NCBI GenBank assembly: GCA_001793095.1
Contig: MGHG01000015.1
Span: forward strand, 1 to 54,496
Reading direction: 5' to 3'
DNA: 54,496 nucleotides
Source of the DNA: Candidatus Woesebacteria bacterium RIFCSPLOWO2_01_FULL_39_23
GTDB lineage: Bacteria > Patescibacteriota > Microgenomatia > UBA8517
The notes under the pieces are model-generated. The model was not told the DNA's origin, searched no databases, and was given only the letters and a program-made list of their open reading frames with translations. Shown here piece by piece: positions 1-10,729 of this stretch. A program made the translations under genes and the position numbers. How positions within the stretch are numbered: position 1 is the first letter of the stretch; every line of letters begins with the position of its first letter.

Positions 1-105
1 AACAACATCAGGCCCCATGAATCTCTTGATTACCAGACACCAATTGCGTATGCTACCCAAAGATTTAAAGTGTCACCGATGTGGTCGTCCAGCACATTTC
101 GTTGA
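1..105 (+). CDS. Transposase C-terminal fragment (IS481/IS3-like, rve fold), cut by the window edge
   Basis: Frame 1 is open from the first base to a TGA at 103-105. It reads NNIRPHESLDYQTP followed by about 20 less conserved residues. The pattern N-x-RPHESL-x-Y-x-TP is the typical C-terminal end of DDE (rve) integrase-core transposases of the IS3/IS481 type, after the catalytic Glu helix. Only this tail is visible, so the family and the activity of the element cannot be judged. The end of the insertion sequence should lie shortly after the stop, but no terminal repeat can be assigned without the other end. Confidence 0.75.
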   Translation, partial: NNIRPHESLDYQTPIAYATQRFKVSPMWSSSTFR

Positions 106-261
106 CTTGGCAGTTTCATAAAGGTAGAATATAGCTTGGAGTTAAGGAAAATGCTGAAGATAACTCAAATTTTAGTTTCTTCAACCGGTTTACCGACTGT
201 ATAGTTTGGTAATATTTTATTGACTCCTCAATTTTAGTTAAATTCTAAATAATAAATAACT

Positions 262-291
262 TTGGATGTAGATGATAGAGAGTAGTATTTT
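262..291 (+). promoter_or_regulatory. Putative promoter for rny, leaderless
   Basis: TTGGAT at 262-267, an 18-base spacer and TATTTT at 286-291. The expected start of transcription falls at about 298, which is the ATG itself, and no Shine-Dalgarno sequence is seen. The -35 hexamer is the same as in the promoter at 3612. Confidence 0.4.
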
Positions 292-297
292 ACTAAT

Positions 298-1545
298 ATG
301 ACTGATAAAGACGATTTGAAACTATTAATAGTTGATCTTAAAAAACAAAGAGAAGCGCTTGAGGCGAAAGAAAGTAAACTAAAAAGTTTGGAAGAGGAGC
401 TTAAAGAAATTTTGGCAAAGGCTTCAAAAGTGTCAGTAGAAGAAGCAAAAAAACTTCTTTTGGATCAGGTACAAATAGACTTAACCGCAGACATTGCTAA
501 AAAAATCCGTGCAGCAGAGGAAAAAATTAAACTCGAAGCAAACGAAAAGGCTAAAGCAATTCTTGTTGATGCAATGCGCCATGGTGCAACCTCGTATGTA
601 GCTGAATTTACTGTTTCATCAGTTCCTGTGGCTAATGAAGAGGTGAAGGGAAGAATTATTGGCCGGGAAGGAAGAAATATTCGCACCTTCGAGAGAGAAA
701 CCGGAGTTGAGATTGAAATTGATGAAACGAATGAAATTAGGCTATCTTCCTTCGACTCTGTAAGAAGGGAAATTGCCAGACGCGCTCTTGAGGAACTCTT
801 AAAAGATACGAGGATTCAACCTTCAAGAATAGAAGAGGTTGTAGCGAGGATTAAAACCCAAATGGATGACGTACTTTTAGAAGAGGGGAAAAAAATAGCT
901 GAGATGTGCGGCGTCTATAATCTTCCTTTAGACATTCTCAAATTAATTGGCAGATATAAATTCAGGACATCATATGGTCAAAATTTAGGGGTGCATACAA
1001 TTGAAGAAACTAAAATCGGAGTTGCCTTAGCCAATGAAATTGACGCTAATGTTGAGACAGTAAGACTTGGATGTCTTCTCCACGATATCGGTAAGGTTGT
1101 AACAGACGAGGAGGGAACGCATGTCGATGCCGGAGTTGCAGTTCTCAAAAGACATGGTTTTCCCAAAGAAGTTGTTTCTTGTGTCGCCGAACACCACGAA
1201 GATAGACAGTTTACTTCTATAGAGTCTGTTATTGTCTGGACTGCCGACGCTATTTCAGGTTCAAGGCCAGGAGCAAGATACGAACCCCATGAAGGATATG
1301 TACAACGGATGGGCAAGATCGAGGAGATAGCTAAGAATTTTTCTGGTGTTGAAACAGTATTCGCTTTTCAGGCAGGCCGCGATGTCAGAGTAGTTGTTAA
1401 ACCGGATGAAGTCGACGATGATAAATTGACAATTCTTGCACATGATATCGCTAAAAGGTTAGAAAAAGAAGCGGAGTATGTCGGCCAAATTAAAGTTACT
1501 GTGATTCGGGAAGTCAGAGCAACAGATACAACTGTGGCGCGGTAA
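298..1545 (+). CDS. rny: Ribonuclease Y (short form without membrane anchor)
   Basis: Endoribonuclease of the KH/HD family that starts mRNA decay. Residues 1-100 are charged and helical, a predicted coiled coil. A KH domain follows, with GRIIGREGRN around residues 117-126. The HD phosphohydrolase domain has LLHDIGK with the metal-binding pair His262/Asp263, followed by the usual AEHHED and ADAISGSRPGAR blocks. It is 415 residues, against about 510-520 in Bacillus-type enzymes, and lacks the N-terminal membrane helix. An in-frame TAG at 283-285 excludes a longer start. It may therefore be soluble or tethered by a partner. No operon partner: the next gene is about 200 bases away with its own signals. 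Confidence 0.93.
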   Translation: MTDKDDLKLLIVDLKKQREALEAKESKLKSLEEELKEILAKASKVSVEEAKKLLLDQVQIDLTADIAKKIRAAEEKIKLEANEKAKAILVDAMRHGATSYVAEFTVSSVPVANEEVKGRIIGREGRNIRTFERETGVEIEIDETNEIRLSSFDSVRREIARRALEELLKDTRIQPSRIEEVVARIKTQMDDVLLEEGKKIAEMCGVYNLPLDILKLIGRYKFRTSYGQNLGVHTIEETKIGVALANEIDANVETVRLGCLLHDIGKVVTDEEGTHVDAGVAVLKRHGFPKEVVSCVAEHHEDRQFTSIESVIVWTADAISGSRPGARYEPHEGYVQRMGKIEEIAKNFSGVETVFAFQAGRDVRVVVKPDEVDDDKLTILAHDIAKRLEKEAEYVGQIKVTVIREVRATDTTVAR

Positions 1546-1619
1546 GAAGATATTAAGTTGGCAATAATTCAATAAATCAGTAAAACAACAAAGTATTAAA
1601 CACGGGAATAATTTAACTC

Positions 1620-1649
1620 TTGACATAGAAGTACGATCTTATTCATAAT
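1620..1649 (+). promoter_or_regulatory. Putative sigma-70-type promoter upstream of the AsnRS-like/MGS gene
   Basis: TTGACA at 1620-1625 and CATAAT at 1644-1649 with an 18-base spacer. Transcription would start near 1656, giving a leader of about 95 bases that contains the strong terminator-like hairpin at 1722-1747 just before the start codon. Confidence 0.5.
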
Positions 1650-1651
1650 CT

Positions 1652-1688
1652 AATCCCAGGGGGCGAAAAACCTTGGGAATTTTTTTTA
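1652..1688 (+). terminator. Imperfect hairpin plus T-run, probable terminator after rny
   Basis: AATCCCAGG at 1652-1660 pairs imperfectly with CCTTGGGAATT at 1671-1681, and a run of eight T follows. It overlaps the predicted start site of the promoter at 1620-1649, so it more likely ends transcripts arriving from rny than transcripts from that promoter. Confidence 0.5.
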
Positions 1689-1721
1689 GGATAAATATTA
1701 CTCATTTTTTAATAGCAATAT

Positions 1722-1747
1722 AAGAGCCGGGAGGCTCTTTTTTTTTT
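1722..1747 (+). terminator. Perfect terminator hairpin directly before the start codon (candidate attenuator)
   Basis: AAGAGCC, loop GGGA, GGCTCTT, then a T-run reaching 1747. The ATG of the next gene is at 1752, only four bases beyond. With a promoter upstream at 1620-1649, a terminator in this place is best explained as transcription attenuation, or as sequestration of the initiation region. No T-box specifier or tRNA-binding element was recognised. Confidence 0.65.
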
Positions 1748-1751
1748 GGAT

Positions 1752-3239
1752 ATGCTGGACGCAAAAAAACATATTTCGAGCCTCGTTAAAGTGAATTCCG
1801 CGCTGAATTGGGGAGTGCAAAATCATTACAGGAAGTTGGGGCTGACATATGTAGATGTCCCCGAAATTGTTGGCATAACAGGCGCTTGCGAGAACGTCGA
1901 CACTCTTTTTAAAGTGGGGAATCGTCTAAGTGTCCCTCTTTTTATGACGCAAACCGGACAACTATCACTCGAACAATCTCTCCAATATTACTCCGGTGTT
2001 TATACACTTATTCATAGTGGTCGTGATGAAGAATTTGAAGACGAAAGACATTTGAGGCAGTTTAGGTTGATAGAAGAAGAATTTGATTGCACGCTTGCTG
2101 GTATGACAAGGGCAAACTGTGACGATGAAAAAATGTTTACAGCATTACTTGATCATATTGAGCATGCGGTGCAAGCGGCGATTATGGCAGTTGTGGAAGA
2201 ATGTGGTGAGGAATTGAGAAATCAATACGACCGGGATGTTGATTGGTTAAAAGAAGTCGGTCAAAGACCATTCTTTAAAATACCATACGAAGAAGCAATC
2301 GTTATTCTTGGGTGGAACGGTTTTCCTAATATTAAGTTTGGTGATGACTTGAAAGCTAATCATGAAGAAACAGTTGTTAATTTAGTTAACCAAAAATTAA
2401 ACAAAGGAAAAGAAGGTAAACGATTATTACCTGTATTTATTACCAAATATCCTAAAGAAATTAAATTTTTTAACATGAAAGTGTCCCTCGCAGACCCGCG
2501 GGTTGTAATGAGTGCTGATTTGATTCTACCTTTATCCGGGGAAGCAGCCGGTTCGGCAGTTCGGGAACATGATGGCGATAAACTTAAAGACAGATTACTT
2601 AGCTCAACGATGTATGAATTGCATATTGGTAGAGGGGGAACATATGAGGATTTTAAATGGTATGTCGACGGAATTGTAAATGCAGGAAAGACTAATCCGC
2701 ATGCTGGATATGGAATTGGCAATGAACGTGTAATTCAATTCATTCTTGGAAAGAATGATATCCGTGAATGTTCTTTATTTAGTTTATTGACAAAAGAATC
2801 AGGAGATTGGGATGTGTCGAAAAGTGGGAAAATGTATCTTTTTTCTGCCGATAAAAAGATGGTACTGCTATCAATTGGGAAAGAAATTAATAAGAAAAAA
2901 CTGCTTCCAACTATTAAAAAATTAACGGACAGTAATTTTGTATTTTATGCAACCGAAAAAACACACCACTTTTTAAATAATAATAATATTAATTCCACTT
3001 TGGTTTATAAAATCAGTGAGAATGGGAAACCGAATATTAAGGATCTTTTGAGGGAGAACTTCTTTGACGTTATAGTAAATATTCCGACTCATAAATTTGC
3101 TCCTAACAGCGAGCTTACAGATGGAAGAAGAATTCGAAAGGAAGCGTTGCGGACAAAAGCTGCATTGATTACAGATATGCAAGTCGCGGAAGATTTTTTA
3201 CGGGAGTATGGGGTGACTTCCAAAATCCCAAACCCTTGA
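1752..3239 (+). CDS. AsnRS-like class II synthetase core (asparagine synthetase-like) fused to an MGS-like domain
   Basis: 495 residues. Residues 1-340 have the class II aminoacyl-tRNA synthetase catalytic fold of the Asp/Asn branch. Motif 2 is RDEEFEDERHLRQFRLIEEEF-like, with its Arg near residue 90. Motif 3 is GYGIGNERV, with Arg near 326. There is no OB-fold anticodon-binding domain, as in archaeal asparagine synthetases related to AsnRS and in bacterial AsnA, so ATP-dependent asparagine synthesis from aspartate and ammonia is the best guess. Residues about 355-485 resemble the methylglyoxal-synthase-like domain that acts as regulatory module in carbamoyl-phosphate synthase (FDVIVNIPTHKF, then ITDMQVAEDFL). 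The fusion suggests allosteric control. ATG 1752 is preferred over TTG 1746, which lies in the terminator T-run. No obvious ribosome binding site. Confidence 0.7.
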   Translation: MLDAKKHISSLVKVNSALNWGVQNHYRKLGLTYVDVPEIVGITGACENVDTLFKVGNRLSVPLFMTQTGQLSLEQSLQYYSGVYTLIHSGRDEEFEDERHLRQFRLIEEEFDCTLAGMTRANCDDEKMFTALLDHIEHAVQAAIMAVVEECGEELRNQYDRDVDWLKEVGQRPFFKIPYEEAIVILGWNGFPNIKFGDDLKANHEETVVNLVNQKLNKGKEGKRLLPVFITKYPKEIKFFNMKVSLADPRVVMSADLILPLSGEAAGSAVREHDGDKLKDRLLSSTMYELHIGRGGTYEDFKWYVDGIVNAGKTNPHAGYGIGNERVIQFILGKNDIRECSLFSLLTKESGDWDVSKSGKMYLFSADKKMVLLSIGKEINKKKLLPTIKKLTDSNFVFYATEKTHHFLNNNNINSTLVYKISENGKPNIKDLLRENFFDVIVNIPTHKFAPNSELTDGRRIRKEALRTKAALITDMQVAEDFLREYGVTSKIPNP

Positions 3240-3264
3240 CAATTTTTAGTCTTTAGTCTATCCT
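3236..3264 (+). promoter_or_regulatory. Promoter of the HU gene, leaderless
   Basis: Perfect TTGACA at 3236-3241, overlapping the stop codon of the upstream gene. A 17-base spacer leads to TATCCT at 3259-3264. The predicted start site (about 3271) is within four bases of the ATG at 3275, leaving no room for a Shine-Dalgarno. Confidence 0.6.
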
Positions 3265-3274
3265 TCTTTGATAC

Positions 3275-3553
3275 ATGACTAAACGAGAACTTGTAGATAT
3301 CGTTGCACGAAAAGCACACTTGACAAAAAGAGCGGCTGAAGAAGCCATAAATGTATTTTTAAGTGAAATCGGACGTGCTCTTGGTAAAGGTGAATCAAGG
3401 ATAGTGCTTTCGGGCTTCGGAACTTTTAAAGTTAAATGGATGGAAGGTAAAACTGTTAAGATTCCGAAAAGAGATGAAACAGTAACAATAAAACGCCACA
3501 GGCTTCCCCGCTTTACTCCCGGGAATGATTTAAAAAGACAAATTAATCGATAA
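3275..3553 (+). CDS. hup: HU-family DNA-binding protein
   Basis: 92-residue histone-like protein that bends and compacts DNA. It starts with MTKRELVDIVARKAHLTKRAAEEAI and has the beta-arm core GFGTFKVKWMEGK and the C-terminal RFTPGNDLKRQI, all at standard HU positions. In the arm, the usual RNP tip is replaced by a lysine/arginine-rich stretch (KIPKRDETVTIKRHRLPRF). Monocistronic with its own promoter overlapping the upstream stop codon, and apparently translated from a leaderless mRNA. Confidence 0.93.
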   Translation: MTKRELVDIVARKAHLTKRAAEEAINVFLSEIGRALGKGESRIVLSGFGTFKVKWMEGKTVKIPKRDETVTIKRHRLPRFTPGNDLKRQINR

Positions 3554-3611
3554 CTTACAACTTAGAACTCAAAACTGATAACTCATAACCTCGTAAATCC
3601 TCTTTTTATGT

Positions 3612-3640
3612 TTGGATTTGTAACTTCTTCGGGTTATACT
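3612..3640 (+). promoter_or_regulatory. Promoter of the ABC exporter operon, leaderless
   Basis: TTGGAT at 3612-3617, a 17-base spacer and TATACT at 3635-3640. Predicted initiation near 3647, two bases before the ATG at 3649. Confidence 0.5.
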
Positions 3641-3648
3641 TTGTTCAA

Positions 3649-4650
3649 ATGACGAAGACGGAAAATACGGTAATTATTAAAGGTTTAACTAAAAATTTTG
3701 ACGTTAGGTTTAAAGAGGCAGGATTGGCGGGATCCATAAAATCTTTAATTAAACCAAAGAATATAGTAAAGAGAGCCTTAAAAGGCATATCTTTTACGGT
3801 CAGTAGGGGTGAGCTGATTGGTTTTATTGGTCCGAATGGTGCCGGTAAAACAACAACACTTAAAATTCTTTCCGGTCTTCTTTATCCAACGAATGGTTTT
3901 GTTCAAGTACTTGGTTTTAATCCTTGGGAAAAAAAGCCGGAGTTCTTAAAAAATATTTCACTTGTCATGGGGCAAAAAAATCAATTGTGGTGGGATTTAC
4001 CTGCAATAGAGTCTTTAAAACTTAATCGCGCAATTTACGAAATCTCTCAAAAAGATTTTACTGAGAGACTAAATAAGCTAACGGATTTATTGGACGTAGG
4101 AAATCTTCTTTCAACTCAAGTTAGAAAACTATCGCTTGGCCAGAGGATGAGATTGGAGTTTGTAACAGCGCTGATTCATGAACCCGAAATATTATTTTTG
4201 GATGAACCTACAATTGGTCTTGATGTTATAGCACAGCAGAAAGTACGCGATTTCATTTACGAATATAATCTGAAAAACAGAGCAACGATACTTTTAACTT
4301 CTCATAACATGAATGATTTGTTGGATTTAACAAAGAGAGTAATTGTTATTGATAGCGGAGAAATTTTGTATGACGGTTATTTGTCGGAGCTGGTGAGGAG
4401 TTTTGCCAAAGAAAAGATAATCAAGGTTTATTTAGCTAAGGAGTCGGATATAAAAAAGTTTGAAACAATCGGCAAAATAATTAAGCTAGATTTACCTTAT
4501 GTGAGTTTGTCTGTCCCGCGTGAGAGTGCGGCAGTTGCTGCCTCAGAGATACTCCAAAGCTTTGCAGTTGCCGATTTAACAATCGAAGAAGAGCCAATCG
4601 AAGGAGTTATAAGGCGTGTATTTAAAGGAGAAATGGTCAAGCAAAGTTAA
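3649..4650 (+). CDS. ABC-2 type exporter, ATP-binding subunit
   Basis: 333 residues with one ABC ATPase domain. Walker A GPNGAGKTT is near residues 61-69, the signature LSLGQRMR near 162, Walker B ILFLDEPT near 181 and the H-loop TSHN near 217. The N-terminal extension (RFKEAGLAGSIKSL) before the ATPase core is typical of the subfamily paired with DUF990-type (ABC2_membrane_6) permeases. It heads a three-gene operon with two permeases, so the complex is probably a heterodimeric membrane exporter. The substrate cannot be read from sequence. Confidence 0.9.
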   Translation: MTKTENTVIIKGLTKNFDVRFKEAGLAGSIKSLIKPKNIVKRALKGISFTVSRGELIGFIGPNGAGKTTTLKILSGLLYPTNGFVQVLGFNPWEKKPEFLKNISLVMGQKNQLWWDLPAIESLKLNRAIYEISQKDFTERLNKLTDLLDVGNLLSTQVRKLSLGQRMRLEFVTALIHEPEILFLDEPTIGLDVIAQQKVRDFIYEYNLKNRATILLTSHNMNDLLDLTKRVIVIDSGEILYDGYLSELVRSFAKEKIIKVYLAKESDIKKFETIGKIIKLDLPYVSLSVPRESAAVAASEILQSFAVADLTIEEEPIEGVIRRVFKGEMVKQS

Positions 4651-4654
4651 TGAG

Positions 4655-5458
4655 ATGTCTAAATATAGCCAAGTATTTAAAATATCCCTTCAGGATGAAT
4701 TCGTATACCGACTCAATTTCGTGCTATGGAGACTGAGAAACGTTTTTTCAATCTTTTTAGTTTTTTTTCTCTGGGATAGTATTTTTTCTGTTCAAGACAG
4801 AGTGATTTTTGGTTACGATCGTGTGAAGATATTGACGTATATCTTCGCTCTTATGTTTGTTAAAGCAATCGTTTTTGCTTCCAAAACGATGGACGTGACA
4901 GGTGAGATAGCACGGGGTGATTTAAGTAACAGCTTACTAAAGCCTCTTGATTATTTTAAATATTGGCTTACTCGTGATGTTGCGAGTAAAACTTTAAATT
5001 TAAGCTTTGCATTAGTTGAGACAACATTATTGTTTTTAATATTAAAACCTCCTTTCTTTCTGCAAAATAATTTAATATCAATCCTCTTATTTATTGTTTC
5101 ATTACTAATTGCTGTCGCTCTATATTTCTTAATATTATTTATTGTCAGCTCCTCCGCTTTTTGGGTTCCCGAAATGGGTTGGGCAATACATTTTATTATT
5201 ACGATAGTTATCTTGGAATTTTTGTCCGGTTCACTTTTTCCATTAGATGTTTTACCAAAGCCTATATTTTCAATTCTAAGCTTTACCCCCTTTTATTATT
5301 TGATTTTTTTCCCCATCGAAGTGTATTTAGGTAAAATTTCAGGTGGAGAAGCTGTCAGAGGTATTCTAATTTCCTTTGTTTGGGTAGTTATTTTATATCT
5401 ATTAATGAGGTCTATTTGGCAAAAAGGTCTTAAAGTATATCAGGCATATGGCAGGTAA
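4655..5458 (+). CDS. ABC-2 family permease, first subunit
   Basis: 267 residues with about six hydrophobic segments, beginning with a cytoplasmic helix MSKYSQVFKISLQDEF and a first membrane span rich in Phe/Leu. The block GDLSNSLLKPLDYFKYW and the spacing of spans fit ABC-2 permeases of the DUF990 type. ATG 4655 is four bases after the stop of the ATPase gene. The reading frame stays open upstream to about 4616, but that part overlaps the ATPase coding end and is not permease-like. Works with the ATPase and the following permease. Confidence 0.8.
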   Translation: MSKYSQVFKISLQDEFVYRLNFVLWRLRNVFSIFLVFFLWDSIFSVQDRVIFGYDRVKILTYIFALMFVKAIVFASKTMDVTGEIARGDLSNSLLKPLDYFKYWLTRDVASKTLNLSFALVETTLLFLILKPPFFLQNNLISILLFIVSLLIAVALYFLILFIVSSSAFWVPEMGWAIHFIITIVILEFLSGSLFPLDVLPKPIFSILSFTPFYYLIFFPIEVYLGKISGGEAVRGILISFVWVVILYLLMRSIWQKGLKVYQAYGR

Positions 5459-5475
5459 TATTTTTTAGTAAAAAA

Positions 5476-6303
5476 ATGAAATTTCCAATTAAATTACTCA
5501 ATATAAAAACTATTGTTAAGAGAACTGGTTACTACTTAAAGATATGGGTTTTGATGAGCAGGAACGCACTTCTCGTAGTTTTATCTCAGAGATTTATGTT
5601 TATAATATTCTTATTGGCGAAAATTATCAGATATAGCTTTTTTATATCCTTTTTATATTTCGTCGTTAAGGGAACCAACACAATCGCGGGTTATGATTTA
5701 AACCAGGTAATATTGATTTATCTCACCTTTACTTTTATAGATATTGCATCGCAGTTTTTATACCGTGAGGTATATAGGTTTAGGCCGTTAATTATCTCAG
5801 GAGATTTCGACTTAGTTTTGGTGAAGCCGGTAAGTGCTTTATTCCGCGTACTTATGGGAGGGGCAGATATCATTGATTTTGTATTGATTCCACCGATCAT
5901 TTTTGCAATCTGGTTTATTGGAGCGAAGATGGACCCGTCTTTTATTCAGGTAATTCTATATGTTTTACTTTTAGCAAACGGACTTTTAATTGCGACCGGA
6001 TTTTATATTTTAGTTTTATCTTTTGGGATCCTTACTTTTGAGGTAGACCATACGGCAATGATTTTCCGCGACATGGCAAGTTTGGGAAGACTTCCGATAG
6101 AAGTATATAGACAACCACTTAGAAGTTTTTTAACTTTTCTGATACCGCTTGGAGTTATGATCACCTTACCCTCGAGAGTTCTGATGGGTATAATTTCACC
6201 CTTAAGTGTAGTCGGTTCATGTGCGCTTGGAATTGTCTTTTTGTATTTCTCAACTAAAATTTGGAGCTTTGCTTTAACCAAATATACAAGTGCGAGTAGC
6301 TAG
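5476..6303 (+). CDS. ABC-2 family permease, second subunit
   Basis: 275 residues, about six membrane spans. It is paralogous in layout to the preceding permease: the matching block reads RPLIISGDFDLVLVKPVSALFR, in the same place where the first permease has GDLSNSLLKPLDYF. This duplicated-permease arrangement is characteristic of the DUF990/ABC2_membrane_6 exporters. It starts 17 bases after the first permease, and the cluster ends here. Confidence 0.8.
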   Translation: MKFPIKLLNIKTIVKRTGYYLKIWVLMSRNALLVVLSQRFMFIIFLLAKIIRYSFFISFLYFVVKGTNTIAGYDLNQVILIYLTFTFIDIASQFLYREVYRFRPLIISGDFDLVLVKPVSALFRVLMGGADIIDFVLIPPIIFAIWFIGAKMDPSFIQVILYVLLLANGLLIATGFYILVLSFGILTFEVDHTAMIFRDMASLGRLPIEVYRQPLRSFLTFLIPLGVMITLPSRVLMGIISPLSVVGSCALGIVFLYFSTKIWSFALTKYTSASS

Positions 6304-6383
6304 ATGCCCCAGTAGTAGCTTGCCGCTCCCGAGGTCTACGTCCTCGCGTCACGGTGTCGCAACTACGGGGTAATAGCATATTT
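6304..6383. repeat. Short GC-rich palindromic intergenic segment
   Basis: The 80 bases between the exporter and miaA are much richer in GC than both neighbours. They contain CGAGG/CCTCG arms (around 6332-6348) and an outer pair GCCCC-AGTAGT / ACTACGGGG. It looks like one of the dispersed palindromic inserts of this genome. No ORF was found. Confidence 0.4.
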
Positions 6384-7385
6384 ATGAGAAAGTTATTAGT
6401 TATTTGTGGACCAACTGCGACCGGTAAAACAGAACTTGGGATGTATTTGGCAAAGATGTTGGCCGCCGGCCCAAAGGGCTCCGGCCCGGGGGGTGAAATT
6501 GTGTCCGCTGATTCCCGACAGATATATAAGGGAATGGATATAGGAACGGGTAAGGACCTACCAAAAAAATCCAAAATTCAAAAACTCCAAGACTCCAAAC
6601 TTGAATATGGTTTTTTTAATATTACTGGTGTTAGGATGTGGGGGTATGATATTGTTGAACCGAATGAAGATTTCAGCGTTGCGCGTTATATTAACACGGC
6701 GAATTTGATAATCAAAGATATTTGGCGGCGGAACAAATTACCAATATTGGTGGGCGGAACAGGTTTTTATATTAAGGGAGTTGTTGACGGAATCCCAACG
6801 GCTTCGGTACCGAAAAGTTTACGTATAAGAGAAAAGTTTAAAGATAAATTGGTCAAAGAACTTCAGGATGTGCTTAGAAAATTCGACGCAAAGAGATTTG
6901 CTTCTATGAATGAGTCGGATAAAAATAATCCAAGGAGGCTGGTTAGAGCAATAGAAATATACAAGTCTAAGTACAAGTTTGAGTATAAGAAACACAGCGA
7001 ACCGAATTTTAATACGCTATTCATAGGTTTGACGACTACAAAACAGATATTAGATAGGAGGATTGAAAAGCGAGTAAGGAACAGATTGCAAGTAGGTTTT
7101 GAAGATGAAATTAGGAATTTATTAAAAGCCGGAATTACATGGGATAACCAAGCAATGCAAGCACTGGGTTATAGACAATGGCAAGAGTTTTTCACTACAT
7201 CCGCTAAATCCGTTAGAAATCAGCGTGAATTTGCAATTGAATCATGGATTCGATCGGAAAAGCAATATGCCAAGCGACAATTAATTTGGTTTAAGAAAGA
7301 CAACAGAATAAAGTGGTTTGATATTAAGGAAAAAGACTATGTTGTTAGGGTGGAAAAGTTAGTTAGGGAATGGCATAATAATTAG
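6384..7385 (+). CDS. miaA: tRNA dimethylallyltransferase
   Basis: Transfers a dimethylallyl group to A37 of tRNAs reading UNN codons. The protein has 333 residues. The P-loop GPTATGKT is at residues 8-15, followed by EIVSADSRQIYKGMDIGTGK and GGTGFYIKGVVDG, both family hallmarks. ATG 6384 is chosen because the P-loop is then at its normal distance from the start; the upstream open stretch (GTG 6354) lies in a palindromic intergenic segment. An in-frame, GC-rich insertion (AAGPKGSGPGG, around residues 27-37) separates the first helix from the SADSRQ strand; see the repeat at 6465-6485. The sequence is otherwise normal, so the enzyme is probably active. Confidence 0.93.
   Translation: MRKLLVICGPTATGKTELGMYLAKMLAAGPKGSGPGGEIVSADSRQIYKGMDIGTGKDLPKKSKIQKLQDSKLEYGFFNITGVRMWGYDIVEPNEDFSVARYINTANLIIKDIWRRNKLPILVGGTGFYIKGVVDGIPTASVPKSLRIREKFKDKLVKELQDVLRKFDAKRFASMNESDKNNPRRLVRAIEIYKSKYKFEYKKHSEPNFNTLFIGLTTTKQILDRRIEKRVRNRLQVGFEDEIRNLLKAGITWDNQAMQALGYRQWQEFFTTSAKSVRNQREFAIESWIRSEKQYAKRQLIWFKKDNRIKWFDIKEKDYVVRVEKLVREWHNN
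6465..6485. repeat. Palindromic repeat inserted in frame in miaA
   Basis: GCCGGCCC, AAA, then GGGCTCCGGC form a near-perfect hairpin in otherwise AT-rich DNA. It encodes the extra AGPKGSG residues in MiaA, at a surface position just after the first helix. Confidence 0.6.
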
Positions 7386-7431
7386 AGTGTAAGAGCTGGA
7401 GAGTGTAGGGGTGTAAGATTAGAAATGTACA

Positions 7432-8418
7432 ATGGAAAACAAAGTCCAAAAGGTTGAAATTTCTCATAAAACAATAATTTTTACGTTTTTCTTCCTTCTT
7501 TTTATGTTATTTCTATATAGCATACTGGACGTGATACTCCAATTTTTTGTATCTCTTATTATAATGGCGTCGTTTAACCCAATTGTTACAAGGTTGGGGC
7601 GCTATAGAATACCAAGAGCTGTGGCTGTTATCTTTGTCTACTTAATATTCTTTTTGATTTTGGGAATCGCTGTTTATGCCTTAATCCCGGCTCTGATTGA
7701 GCAAACAACCAGTTTTGTAGCTAACCTCCCGATTTATCTGGATAACCTTGGGATTCCGACGGTCGTTAGAGAAAAAGTCCTTTCTGAATTTTTAGTGCAG
7801 ATTGGCGGTCTTCCCAGCCAAATTGCAAAAACAACTATTTCTATTTTCTCGAACGTTTTGGGGGTTATAACTGTCTTAATTTTTGCATTTTATCTCCTTA
7901 TTTACAGAAATAAGTTTGATGATATTTTAACCAACTTTTTAAGTGACGAAAAAAGAAGAGAGGTTAGACGGGTGATCGATAGACTCGAGACGCAGCTTGG
8001 CGGTTGGGCGAGGGGTGAGCTACTTTTAATGTTTTTAATAGGAGTTCTCACTTATACCGGCTTGTTGCTTTTAGGAATTCCATTTGCACTCCCTCTGGCA
8101 ATTTTAGCGGGCATGTTTGAGATAATTCCTATAATCGGGCCTGCAATATCAGCTTTGCCGGCGATTATAATCGGATTTGGGATTTCGCCTGTCACGGGTA
8201 TTGCAATGGCATCTTTAGCATTTTTAATTCAACAAGTCGAAAATTATGTATTTGTTCCCAAAATCATGCAAAGATCAGTTGGAGTAAATCCGATTGTCAC
8301 GCTTTTAGCTTTAACCATAGGCTTTAAATTGTCAGGAATTGTCGGTGTCTTAATTTCCGTTCCGGTTGTAATAACCGCGCAGGTCCTCGTTAAAGAATTT
8401 TTAACTTCGAAAGCTTAA
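7432..8418 (+). CDS. AI-2E family transporter (permease)
   Basis: 328 residues, seven to eight predicted membrane helices in the typical arrangement of the PF01594 family. There is an N-terminal hairpin, the conserved stretch around FNPIVTRLGRYRIPR, a long amphipathic linker, and the C-terminal GMFEIIPIIGPAISALPAIIIG block followed by QQVENYVFVPKIMQ. Members include the autoinducer-2 exporter TqsA, but also Na+/H+ antiporters and proteins of unknown substrate, so the cargo is not assigned. It stands alone, 46 bases after miaA. Confidence 0.87.
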   Translation: MENKVQKVEISHKTIIFTFFFLLFMLFLYSILDVILQFFVSLIIMASFNPIVTRLGRYRIPRAVAVIFVYLIFFLILGIAVYALIPALIEQTTSFVANLPIYLDNLGIPTVVREKVLSEFLVQIGGLPSQIAKTTISIFSNVLGVITVLIFAFYLLIYRNKFDDILTNFLSDEKRREVRRVIDRLETQLGGWARGELLLMFLIGVLTYTGLLLLGIPFALPLAILAGMFEIIPIIGPAISALPAIIIGFGISPVTGIAMASLAFLIQQVENYVFVPKIMQRSVGVNPIVTLLALTIGFKLSGIVGVLISVPVVITAQVLVKEFLTSKA

Positions 8419-8447
8419 AAAGGAAAACCCCTCCTTTCGGAGAGGTT
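8415..8447 (-). terminator. Rho-independent terminator of rnpB
   Basis: Read on the minus strand: AACCTCTCC, loop GAAA, GGAGGGGTT, then TTCCTTTTT. A GNRA-capped nine-base stem with a T-rich tail, directly after the 3' end of the RNase P RNA. Confidence 0.75.
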
Positions 8448-8454
8448 AATCCAT

Positions 8455-8915
8455 ATACCCTGGAGGGTAGTAAGCCAGGTTCTGTTTCCCCCGTGAGATA
8501 TGAAATTATCTCACTGGGTAGATAATCATCTGTCTTTGCCCTCAAACTTCTGTCCACCCCGAGCTAGACTCGGTTTCGGGAAGGCGACCTAATGTCGGAC
8601 AATTCGGAGGTTGCAACTGGGAGGATTGTCTCTTTTCACTCGTTCTCCAATACATTTTAAGTATTGGGGTCGACATCGTTTCTGTGACTCTCCCGTTCTG
8701 TTAATTCAGAACCGGTGTCTTCCACCGATTGGCGGATGACCACTAGCTGTTTGCCTTCGGCTTCGCTCAGGTTTTCGACACTGAGTTCAACCGATGGCTT
8801 CCAGTCAGAGCTTACGCTCCGTCCCATACCTTCTGTTGCCTGGACTTTCCTGACCGTGAGATGGCGAGCTTTGCAAGCTCTATCTCATGGCCCGATTATC
8901 CCTCCTCCAGAGTAT
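8455..8915 (-). ncRNA. rnpB: RNase P RNA (bacterial type), about 460 nt, with an inserted repeat
   Basis: Catalytic RNA that removes the 5' leader of pre-tRNAs. On the minus strand the conserved 5' core AGGAAAGTCCAGGC (consensus GAGGAAAGTCCGGGC) and the 3' core ACAGAACCTGGCTTA are present at the proper ends, and ACAGAAACGATG lies between them. Helix P1 forms from ATACTCTGGAGG (8915-8904) and CCTCCAGGGTAT (8466-8455). The RNA is longer than the usual 350-400 nt. Part of the excess is a palindromic repeat at 8751-8790, in the position expected for variable helix P12. Promoter and terminator are both recognisable. Boundaries are set by P1 and are good to a few bases. Confidence 0.92.
8751..8790. 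repeat. TTCG-type palindromic repeat inside rnpB
   Basis: Contains CCTTCGGCTTCGCTCAGG and the arms CTCAG (8766-8770) and CTGAG (8781-8785). Its vocabulary (TTCGGCT, GCTCAGG) is shared with the repeats at 14030-14125 and 53432-53493. Confidence 0.5.
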
Positions 8916-8919
8916 GTAT

Positions 8920-8925
8920 ATTATA
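8920..8925 (-). promoter_or_regulatory. -10 box of rnpB
   Basis: TATAAT on the minus strand; initiation about seven bases further falls at about 8913, exactly at the beginning of helix P1. No good -35 hexamer was found. Confidence 0.55.
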
Positions 8926-9049
8926 CTCCATGAATGCTAATAATTCATTTTTTTGGTTCCTCGTCTCTGGACAATCACCAGCCGTTGATGCAATAATGGG
9001 AGAGTAAATCACCCACCCCATAAGGGGTAAGGGTAGTTTTTGCTTGCCC

Positions 9050-10729
9050 ATGTTAATATCCGATGAAAAATTAAAAAAGATACTTGTCGGATCGGGATTT
9101 GTTGGTGAGAAGGAATTTGAAGAGGCTTCAAAAAGTGCCACAGATATAGGTAAAGATATTTCAGATGTGTTGATTTTCAGAGGTTTAATAAGTGAAGATG
9201 CTCTTGGAAAACTTATATCAGAACATCTTAACGTCCCCTACGCTGATGTTAAACGCCTTTTTATTTCTGCGGATATTTTAGGCTTAATTCCCGAGAAGCT
9301 TGCTCGAACTTATCGTATGGTGCCGTTTGAGTTAAAGGGAAAGATACTCAAAGTGGCAATGGAGAATCCGGAAGATTTTGAGGCGATCGAATTTGCGAAA
9401 CGTCAGACCGGCTACGAAATTGTGCCTTATTATGCAAGAGCCGAAGATATTGCACGGGCGTTGGGTCAATATAAGAAGAATATTAAATATGACTTTGACA
9501 AGGAAATTGCCGAGAATCTTAAGAAAGCTTCTCCAGGACAGAATTTAGAGCGGGCAGCTGAAGAAATTCCGATTGTCAGAATATTAAACACAATAATGGA
9601 ATATGCTGTGGCAGAGAGATCAAGCGATGTGCATATCGAAACCCAATCTGAAGATGTAATCGTACGTTTTAGGGTGGATGGGGTACTCCGCGATATTATA
9701 AAATTTCCCCGGGGAGTAGAGGAAGCACTGGTTGCCAGAATAAAAATTCTCTCGAATCTTAAAATAGATGAACACAGAATTCCGCAAGACGGACGGTATA
9801 AATTCAGTATCGATGAAGAAATAATTGCGCTCCGTATTTCTATCATCCCCGGATTTTACGGTGAAAACGTAGTTATGAGGATTTTGCGGGAGACCAATCG
9901 ACCGCTGTCAATGGAAGAATTGGGAATTACTGGAATTTCTCTCAAACTTATCAGAGACAGTATGTTAAAACCTCATGGCATGATTTTAATTACGGGTCCG
10001 ACCGGGTCGGGTAAAACGACTACTTTATACTCGATTCTTAATATTTTAAATACGGTTGAGGTTAAGATTTGTACAATTGAGGACCCAATTGAGTACGGAA
10101 TTAATAGAGTCAGCCAGATTCAGGTAAATCCAAAAACGGGGTTAACATTTGCTACAGGTCTAAGGGCTCTAATGAGGCATGATCCAGATATAATAATGGT
10201 AGGTGAGATTAGAGATAAGGAAACTGCTGAGATAGCAATTCACTCCGCTCTCACGGGCCATTTAGTGTTGTCGACTCTTCATACAAATACCGCAACAGGA
10301 GCAATTCCGAGACTTCTTGACATGGGTACGGAGGCATTCTTACTGGCCTCAACTTTAAACATAATTATTTCCCAGAGACTTGTTCGAAGGATTTGTCCTT
10401 CGTGTATTGCCAAATATACACCTGAGGATGTTTTAGTTAAAAGACTGACAAAAGAACTCGGGGTGGAGCATTCTAAAATTAAATTTTATAAAGGCAAGGG
10501 ATGTGACAATTGTAACCAAAAAGGTTATTCTGGAAGAGTCGGTATTTATGAAATACTTCCAATAACCGAAAAGCTAAGAAATTTAATTATTCAAAAACCA
10601 TCGACAGACGAGTTATTAAAGGTTGCGCAAGACGAAGGTATGGTAACTATGTTACAAGACGGAGTTGATAAAGTTTCGTCGGGATTGACAACAATTGAAG
10701 AAGTATTCAGAGTTGCAAGTGAAACTTGA
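9050..10729 (+). CDS. pilB: Type IV pilus extension ATPase PilB/GspE
   Basis: Cytoplasmic hexameric motor that powers pilus polymerisation. The protein has 559 residues. An N-terminal MshEN-type domain covers residues 1-150, and the T2SSE ATPase follows. Walker A GPTGSGKTT is near residue 315, then the Asp box TIEDPIEYG, Walker B DPDIIMVGEIRD and the His box TGHLVLSTLHTN. The tetracysteine zinc motif CPSC (about 449) and CDNC (about 484) is present and favours PilB over PilT. ATG 9050 is used, since the upstream TTG adds only two residues; the purine-rich AAGGGGTAAGGG lies 18-29 bases upstream. Followed by pilC after three bases. Confidence 0.95.
   Translation: MLISDEKLKKILVGSGFVGEKEFEEASKSATDIGKDISDVLIFRGLISEDALGKLISEHLNVPYADVKRLFISADILGLIPEKLARTYRMVPFELKGKILKVAMENPEDFEAIEFAKRQTGYEIVPYYARAEDIARALGQYKKNIKYDFDKEIAENLKKASPGQNLERAAEEIPIVRILNTIMEYAVAERSSDVHIETQSEDVIVRFRVDGVLRDIIKFPRGVEEALVARIKILSNLKIDEHRIPQDGRYKFSIDEEIIALRISIIPGFYGENVVMRILRETNRPLSMEELGITGISLKLIRDSMLKPHGMILITGPTGSGKTTTLYSILNILNTVEVKICTIEDPIEYGINRVSQIQVNPKTGLTFATGLRALMRHDPDIIMVGEIRDKETAEIAIHSALTGHLVLSTLHTNTATGAIPRLLDMGTEAFLLASTLNIIISQRLVRRICPSCIAKYTPEDVLVKRLTKELGVEHSKIKFYKGKGCDNCNQKGYSGRVGIYEILPITEKLRNLIIQKPSTDELLKVAQDEGMVTMLQDGVDKVSSGLTTIEEVFRVASET

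Follow-up and report, generated by a model that had tools for sequence, protein, structure and literature searches.

In the established pathway of UMP synthesis, aspartate or asparagine is used only upstream of dihydroorotate and DHODH, and, to our knowledge, the first three steps of de novo pyrimidine synthesis are regarded as nearly invariant across life. The described systems closest to the gene considered here are the class IIb AsnRS (P. horikoshii, 1x54), the free-standing class II synthetase cores deployed in metabolism, namely E. coli AsnA and the archaeal AS-AR (3p8t), and the large subunit CarB. We know of no MGS domain in AsnA or AS-AR and of no linkage of their genes to pyr genes. 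Both activate aspartate and have been described as AspRS-linked or AspRS-derived (PMC3532385). CarB bears a C-terminal MGS domain (PF02142) with a UMP/IMP site, where Thr977, Lys993 and Ser948 of the E. coli protein matter for the binding of UMP or the response to it (PMC6245113).

The gene lies in a stretch of 54,496 nucleotides from Candidatus Woesebacteria bacterium RIFCSPLOWO2_01_FULL_39_23, the whole of which we call the window, and its product combines an AsnRS-like catalytic core with a CarB-type MGS domain (Table 1). Pfam searches with the window protein recovered tRNA-synt_2 (E = 5.4e-27) and MGS (7.5e-13; 48.9 bits against a cut-off of 24.1), the latter agreeing with an earlier note, made from the DNA letters, which had read the second half as CarB-type MGS. 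The NCBIfam model of the CarB C-terminus gives 45 bits, and a PDB search matches the C-terminus of the protein to the CPS MGS domain 2yvq. Unlike CarB, the fusion lacks the ATP-grasp CPSase domains, its catalytic part being the class II synthetase core. In the PDB search the alignment with P. horikoshii AsnRS begins only at about AsnRS residue 130 (132); hence the N-terminal OB anticodon-binding domain is absent, as the earlier note had maintained. An AlphaFold2 model (pLDDT 86.5, pTM 0.73) finds AsnRS catalytic domains as its top PDB structural matches. An in-frame TTG at 1746 offers an alternative start, less likely than the ATG at 1752 because it lies within the T-run of a terminator-like hairpin. 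Since the same fusion is found in 13 further genomes, a frameshift or assembly artefact is ruled out and the architecture is confirmed as real. Within the literature searched, coverage of which was partial, we found no description of the fusion or of its pyrimidine context; both appear to be undescribed, in keeping with the earlier note's remark that it knew of no enzyme with this layout.

Table 1. Features of the fusion gene and its upstream region (positions in the window)
Feature	Position	Strand	Basis and remarks
Promoter-like site TTGACA-N18-CATAAT	1620..1649	+	11/12 consensus positions; consensus match only
Putative leader ORF, TTG start, MGIFFRINITHFLIAI, preceded by CCCAGGGGGC	1673..1723	+	Stop TAA 1721-1723; ends at terminator stem base; suggestive only
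Intrinsic-terminator-like hairpin and T-run, candidate attenuator	1722..1747	+	7 bp stem 1722-1739
AsnRS-like core and MGS fusion protein	1752..3239	+	Single ORF, ATG 1752 to stop 3239, 495 aa; Pfam, NCBIfam, PDB matches
Class II D/N/K synthetase catalytic core	1764..2783	+	Residues 5-344; Pfam PF00152; tree; fold match to AsnRS
Motif 2 region	2016..2081	+	Residues 89-110, including R91, E93, E108; alignment and residue table
Motif 3 region	2700..2729	+	Residues 317-326, including R326; alignment and residue table
MGS-like effector domain, CarB UMP/IMP-site residues kept	2901..3173	+	Residues 384-474; PF02142; residue table

A scan of 84,980 species genomes for homologues yielded 24 loci, two of which (L059 and L060) look like ordinary AsnRS; a profile search splits the family (E < 1e-100) from ordinary AsnRS proteins of at least 438 aa (about 1e-62). 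The complete fusion is encoded in 14 genomes, the window's included, with the ORF split into two frames at one locus (L051). The core occurs without the MGS domain in Gottesmanbacteria, Paceibacterota, Uhrbacteria, one genome of the window's own class (G200), three Bdellovibrionota and, among archaea, G076, G580, G746 and G750. Prevalence is low throughout: 13/374 members of the class, 3/58 genomes of the Bdellovibrionota group and 4/398 of the archaeal group. In a midpoint-rooted maximum-likelihood tree covering the family, AsnRS and AspRS but neither AsnA nor AS-AR, 27 members from Patescibacteria, Bdellovibrionota and archaea form one clade (support 100/100) as sister to AsnRS, with AspRS set apart (98/94) and the AsnRS group itself weaker (84/45). 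Judged from its sequences, the family is a distinct AsnRS-derived clade; the first half of the window protein thus does not group with tRNA synthetases possessing an anticodon domain, and no family member has such a domain. The missing OB domain, the separate clade and a score of 155.8 bits against the cut-off of 342.6 for the NCBIfam AsnRS model TIGR00457 rule out a true AsnRS. Sequence criteria likewise fail to place the protein with AsnA or AS-AR, to which its similarity is low: the window protein has no match to the AsnA Pfam family and scores at most 48.8 bits with the NCBIfam AS-AR models (cut-offs at least 309), and an E. coli AsnA query has no tblastn match in the window genome. The family is best described as a metabolic aminoacyl-tRNA-synthetase paralogue, and may represent a categorically new pathway.

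The class II motifs that the earlier note had recognized hold across the family, with R91 and E93 of motif 2 and R326 of motif 3 invariant in an alignment of 22 homologues. Every member tabulated has L73, E108 and R271, which is the archaeal AsnRS pattern, in place of the K/D/R of AspRS. The AspRS Lys equivalent to L73 is K198 in E. coli numbering; the AspRS Asp (D233) is replaced by Glu, as in AsnRS, and the substrate Arg (R489) and every ATP-site residue checked are retained. With this Leu/Glu/Arg pattern and the ATP site kept, the pocket looks made for asparagine and not for aspartate. The family also has signatures of its own, TGACENxDTLF and KEIKFFNM (KEIKAFYM in AsnRS), both probably near the active site, and their position suggests that the reaction has changed.

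The MGS domain of the window protein keeps all six positions of the E. coli CarB UMP/IMP site (S948, K954, T974, T977, K993 and N1015). K954, T974 and K993 are kept in all other fusion members; the S948 position is S or T except for A in L043, that of T977 varies only to S in L043, and that of N1015 only to C in L044. These residues point to UMP, perhaps IMP, as the effector, and by analogy with CarB the domain likely regulates a first committed step. Apart from L046, the AsnRS fusions have MGS domains that group together (98/100); in L046 the domains of its AsnRS-MGS and ArgG-MGS proteins pair with one another (85/91), which suggests that domains were exchanged within this cluster.

Genes of the pyrD/E/F/K/G set adjoin the gene in 12 of the 14 MGS-bearing members, the window and L043 being the exceptions; cluster annotations were tested on representatives, and close relatives do not contribute independent counts. 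The usual order is fusion gene, pyrD, then pyrF/pyrE, often with pyrG or upp; pyrD often follows directly, with a 4 bp overlap in L037. MGS-less genes show comparable settings: in three Bdellovibrionota genomes they are flanked by pyrE and pyrF, in the archaeon G580 an OMPDC-OPRT fusion follows immediately, and in the archaeon G750 the neighbours are PyrF and a PyrK-like protein. L052 has a divergent DHODH gene about 1.8 kb away, and no pyr linkage was seen nearby in G746, G076, G200, L049 or L053. That the linkage recurs in three groups as far apart as Microgenomates, Bdellovibrionota and archaea is the most telling evidence for a role of the core in UMP synthesis. The connection with pyrimidine metabolism that the earlier note had offered as one option therefore stands, strongly supported by this context and by the conserved UMP-site residues; the downstream pyr genes are absent from the window genome.

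We found a CPSase large-subunit domain (profile search), a DHOase above the TIGR00857 cut-off or an ATCase above cut-off in none of the 14 MGS-bearing genomes, and DHODH in 12 of them (not in G059, for instance). Three OTCace_N matches first taken for ATCase were reclassified: those in G062, adjoining carbamate kinase, and G070, adjoining argininosuccinate lyase, are of the ornithine-carbamoyltransferase type, and that in G065 is ATCase-like and under cut-off. The closed single-contig genome G061 (= G046; 1.02 Mb) has pyrD, E, F, G and upp, and CarB, PyrB and PyrC are absent from it. In the Bdellovibrionota group CarB is found in 0/3 holders versus 43/55 non-holders. Within the window's class CarB-type MGS matches occur in just 5/55 relatives, so a missing CarB is weak evidence there and we dropped it as a strong argument. 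Canonical enzymes also stand beside core-only members, in G067 and G074 (CarB, PyrB and PyrC), G076 (PyrB and PyrC), G580 (CarB) and G071 (ATCase), which rules out that the protein replaces CarAB-PyrB-PyrC in every holder. Given this coexistence, the scarcity of CarB in the class and the many holder genomes that are incomplete MAGs, the putative substitution characterizes the fusion genomes and does not hold for the family as a whole.

The window genome (1.126 Mb, 18 contigs, 99.45% complete) encodes PyrG, a Tdk-like kinase, AsnB, GatCAB and an AspRS-type enzyme (C17); CarA, CarB, PyrB, PyrC, PyrD, PyrE, PyrF, Upp and Udk were not detected in it. Single-sequence queries can overlook genes, as PyrH and Cmk were not found with E. 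coli queries in either of the genomes tested. One assembly gap could also hide pyrD, pyrF and pyrE, because in relatives the three are arranged as a single operon of about 3 kb. The copy in the window may be orphaned, may have been lately retained, or may have its partner operon in an assembly gap; it keeps all family-invariant residues and is hence unlike a decaying pseudogene.

Upstream of the gene, the stem of the hairpin ends 12 nt and its T-run 4 nt before the start codon. Terminator-like hairpins lie at most 60 nt upstream of the start in 7/20 family genes, as against 2.7-2.8% of 1,308 ORFs from two genomes (binomial 8e-7, relatedness ignored). Short leader ORFs ending at or inside the hairpin are found in the window, L038, L039, L040, L043, L044 and L045, a reading weakened by the frequency of short ORFs in AT-rich DNA. 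The layout seen in several copies, the one in the window among them, with a promoter, a leader ORF and a terminator right up against the start codon, is suggestive of a putative attenuator like the E. coli pyrBI leader (pyrL), where a short leader ORF likewise reaches or crosses an intrinsic terminator immediately ahead of the structural gene; the sequences are unrelated. No run of Asn codons occurs in the seven leader peptides, and window positions 1-10000 gave no Rfam match to a known RNA family before the gene.

The best explanation of these observations, to which we give just short of an even chance, is a feedback-regulated, AsnRS-derived adenylating enzyme that supplies dihydroorotate or its precursor from asparagine (or aspartate). 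An enzyme that binds asparagine or aspartate, uses ATP, is encoded directly before DHODH and carries a CarB-type sensor would most likely feed that step. We infer that such a free-standing enzyme of pyrimidine synthesis would bind asparagine, favoured because of the AsnRS-type pocket, or less likely aspartate, together with ATP, and would bypass carbamoyl phosphate in making dihydroorotate or its immediate precursor. The fused MGS domain would set the rate by sensing UMP (perhaps IMP), and the leader attenuator would further limit transcription in several species. Between them, asparagine and CO2 provide all the ring atoms of dihydroorotate in the correct order. In one specific version, possible and yet somewhat unlikely, the N-carboxylate of asparagine (Asn + CO2) would be adenylated and the side-chain amide nitrogen would close the ring to give dihydroorotate, AMP and PPi; asparagine would contribute N1, N3, C4, C5, C6 and the carboxylate, and CO2 would contribute C2. 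TsaC/Sua5 provides a precedent for the adenylation of an amino-acid carbamate. The formation of N-carbamoyl-aspartate from aspartate, CO2, NH3 and ATP is a doubtful alternative. Against the best explanation, the alpha-carboxylate is what a pocket of the AsnRS kind would normally activate, and dihydroorotate formation has no need of that; moreover, the window genome is without pyrD/E/F, upp and a detectable udk, and G059 is without DHODH.

Taken more broadly, it is possible, if less likely than not, that these proteins mark a pyrimidine route unknown till now, in which a class II synthetase-derived enzyme converts asparagine or aspartate, CO2 and ATP to dihydroorotate or carbamoyl-aspartate, bypassing carbamoyl phosphate, ATCase and dihydroorotase and placed under UMP control by a captured CarB domain, in Patescibacteria, some Bdellovibrionota and some archaea. 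If true, this would be a new pathway with a tRNA-synthetase-derived replacement bearing a captured effector domain, would be a case of ring formation by a recruited synthetase core, and would explain UMP synthesis in some Patescibacteria that have pyrD/E/F and no carAB, pyrB or pyrC.

The alternative that survives best, still an unlikely one, is an asparagine synthetase that uses ammonia, is regulated by UMP and came to resemble AsnA by convergence from an AsnRS ancestor; its clustering with pyr genes would reflect the draw of both pathways on aspartate, with pyrD/E/F serving orotate or dihydroorotate salvage. The window genome has the gene and no pyrD/E/F, as this would allow, and a class II core without an anticodon domain recalls AsnA and AS-AR (PMC3532385). 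The earlier note had offered a regulated asparagine synthetase as one of two guesses, and this one is now weakened by the Asn-type pocket, with Leu for the AspRS Lys and Glu for the AspRS Asp, and by the leader peptides without Asn-codon runs. The search for asnB elsewhere in the genome that the note had advised recovered a full-length copy (C9:288825-290657), which counts against this alternative. AS-AR is described as AspRS-derived (PMC3532385), whereas the clade here is sister to AsnRS, and the poor AS-AR and AsnA scores given above stand against it too; nor would it account for the linkage to pyrE/pyrF that is seen in Bdellovibrionota and archaea. Even if asparagine synthesis were the function, a UMP sensor on a synthetase core would be a form of control undescribed within the literature searched.

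Less probable again is a nucleotide-controlled AsnRS paralogue that adenylates the alpha-carboxylate of asparagine and hands asparagine on to a protein or small molecule, the pyrimidine linkage being incidental to the chemistry. All AsnRS substrate-binding residues checked are present, the family-specific changes close to the pocket (AFYM to FFNM and xEG to CEN) hint at a new acceptor, and PoxA/GenX and HisZ are precedents outside translation (PMC3532385); the clusters, however, hold no acceptor candidate, and both the CarB-type effector domain and the place of the gene in pyr operons of three groups speak for UMP synthesis. A residual tRNA synthetase charging tRNA-Asn, for which AsnRS ancestry and intact class II motifs might speak, is highly improbable, as no member has an anticodon domain, the AspRS-type enzyme and GatCAB of the window genome are available for Asn-tRNA, and the MGS domain and pyr linkage would be unexplained.

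A second MGS fusion, of which we know of no earlier description, joins ArgG to a C-terminal MGS domain (L041:2284-3972, L042:2495-4108, L043:3123-4742, L046:3783-5390, L278:7604-9226 and L279:8053-9687). Its MGS domain is 46-50% identical to that of the window protein and it occurs in the same gene clusters as AsnRS-MGS; it differs in its N-type ATP pyrophosphatase core, a canonical ArgG by NCBIfam. Six of the genomes carry it, most of these with an amidohydrolase, and the pair may supply dihydroorotate by another way. In L279 the gene precedes an amidohydrolase and pyrD, and G047 and G049 have ArgG-MGS without the AsnRS-like gene. The amidohydrolase of the ArgG-MGS/pyrD clusters (L041:3962-4957, L047:2443-3444, L279:9690-10661) is in L041 NCBIfam NF005365 (PRK06886, hypothetical). 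One idea would be that it hydrolyses the ArgG product, or a cyclic form of it, to carbamoyl-aspartate or dihydroorotate, as a second carbamoyl-phosphate-free route.

In these clusters a second, divergent DHODH type (L041:6430-8349, L042:6416-7495, L044:6438-8291, L047:6467-7591, L279:10665-11735) alternates with class 1B PyrD. The L041 protein is long, at 639 aa, and its C-terminal half has a weak PRTase-like match; the best NCBIfam match of the L042 protein is PreA (74.5 bits, under cut-off). Window positions 298-1545 encode an RNase Y-like protein of 415 aa with KH and HD domains, whose match starts at RNase_Y_N position 114, the N-terminal part seemingly missing. An archaeal OMP decarboxylase-orotate phosphoribosyltransferase fusion of 447 aa (L274:9778-11121) lies directly downstream of an AsnRS-like core. 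The AsnRS-like core of L048:3597-6122 (also in G199; 843 aa) is extended at its N-terminus by about 470 aa, and a Pfam scan of the 476 added residues in L048 gave no match. This fusion gene belongs to a carB-pyrB-pyrC cluster, and pyrD-pyrF-pyrE lie a few genes further.
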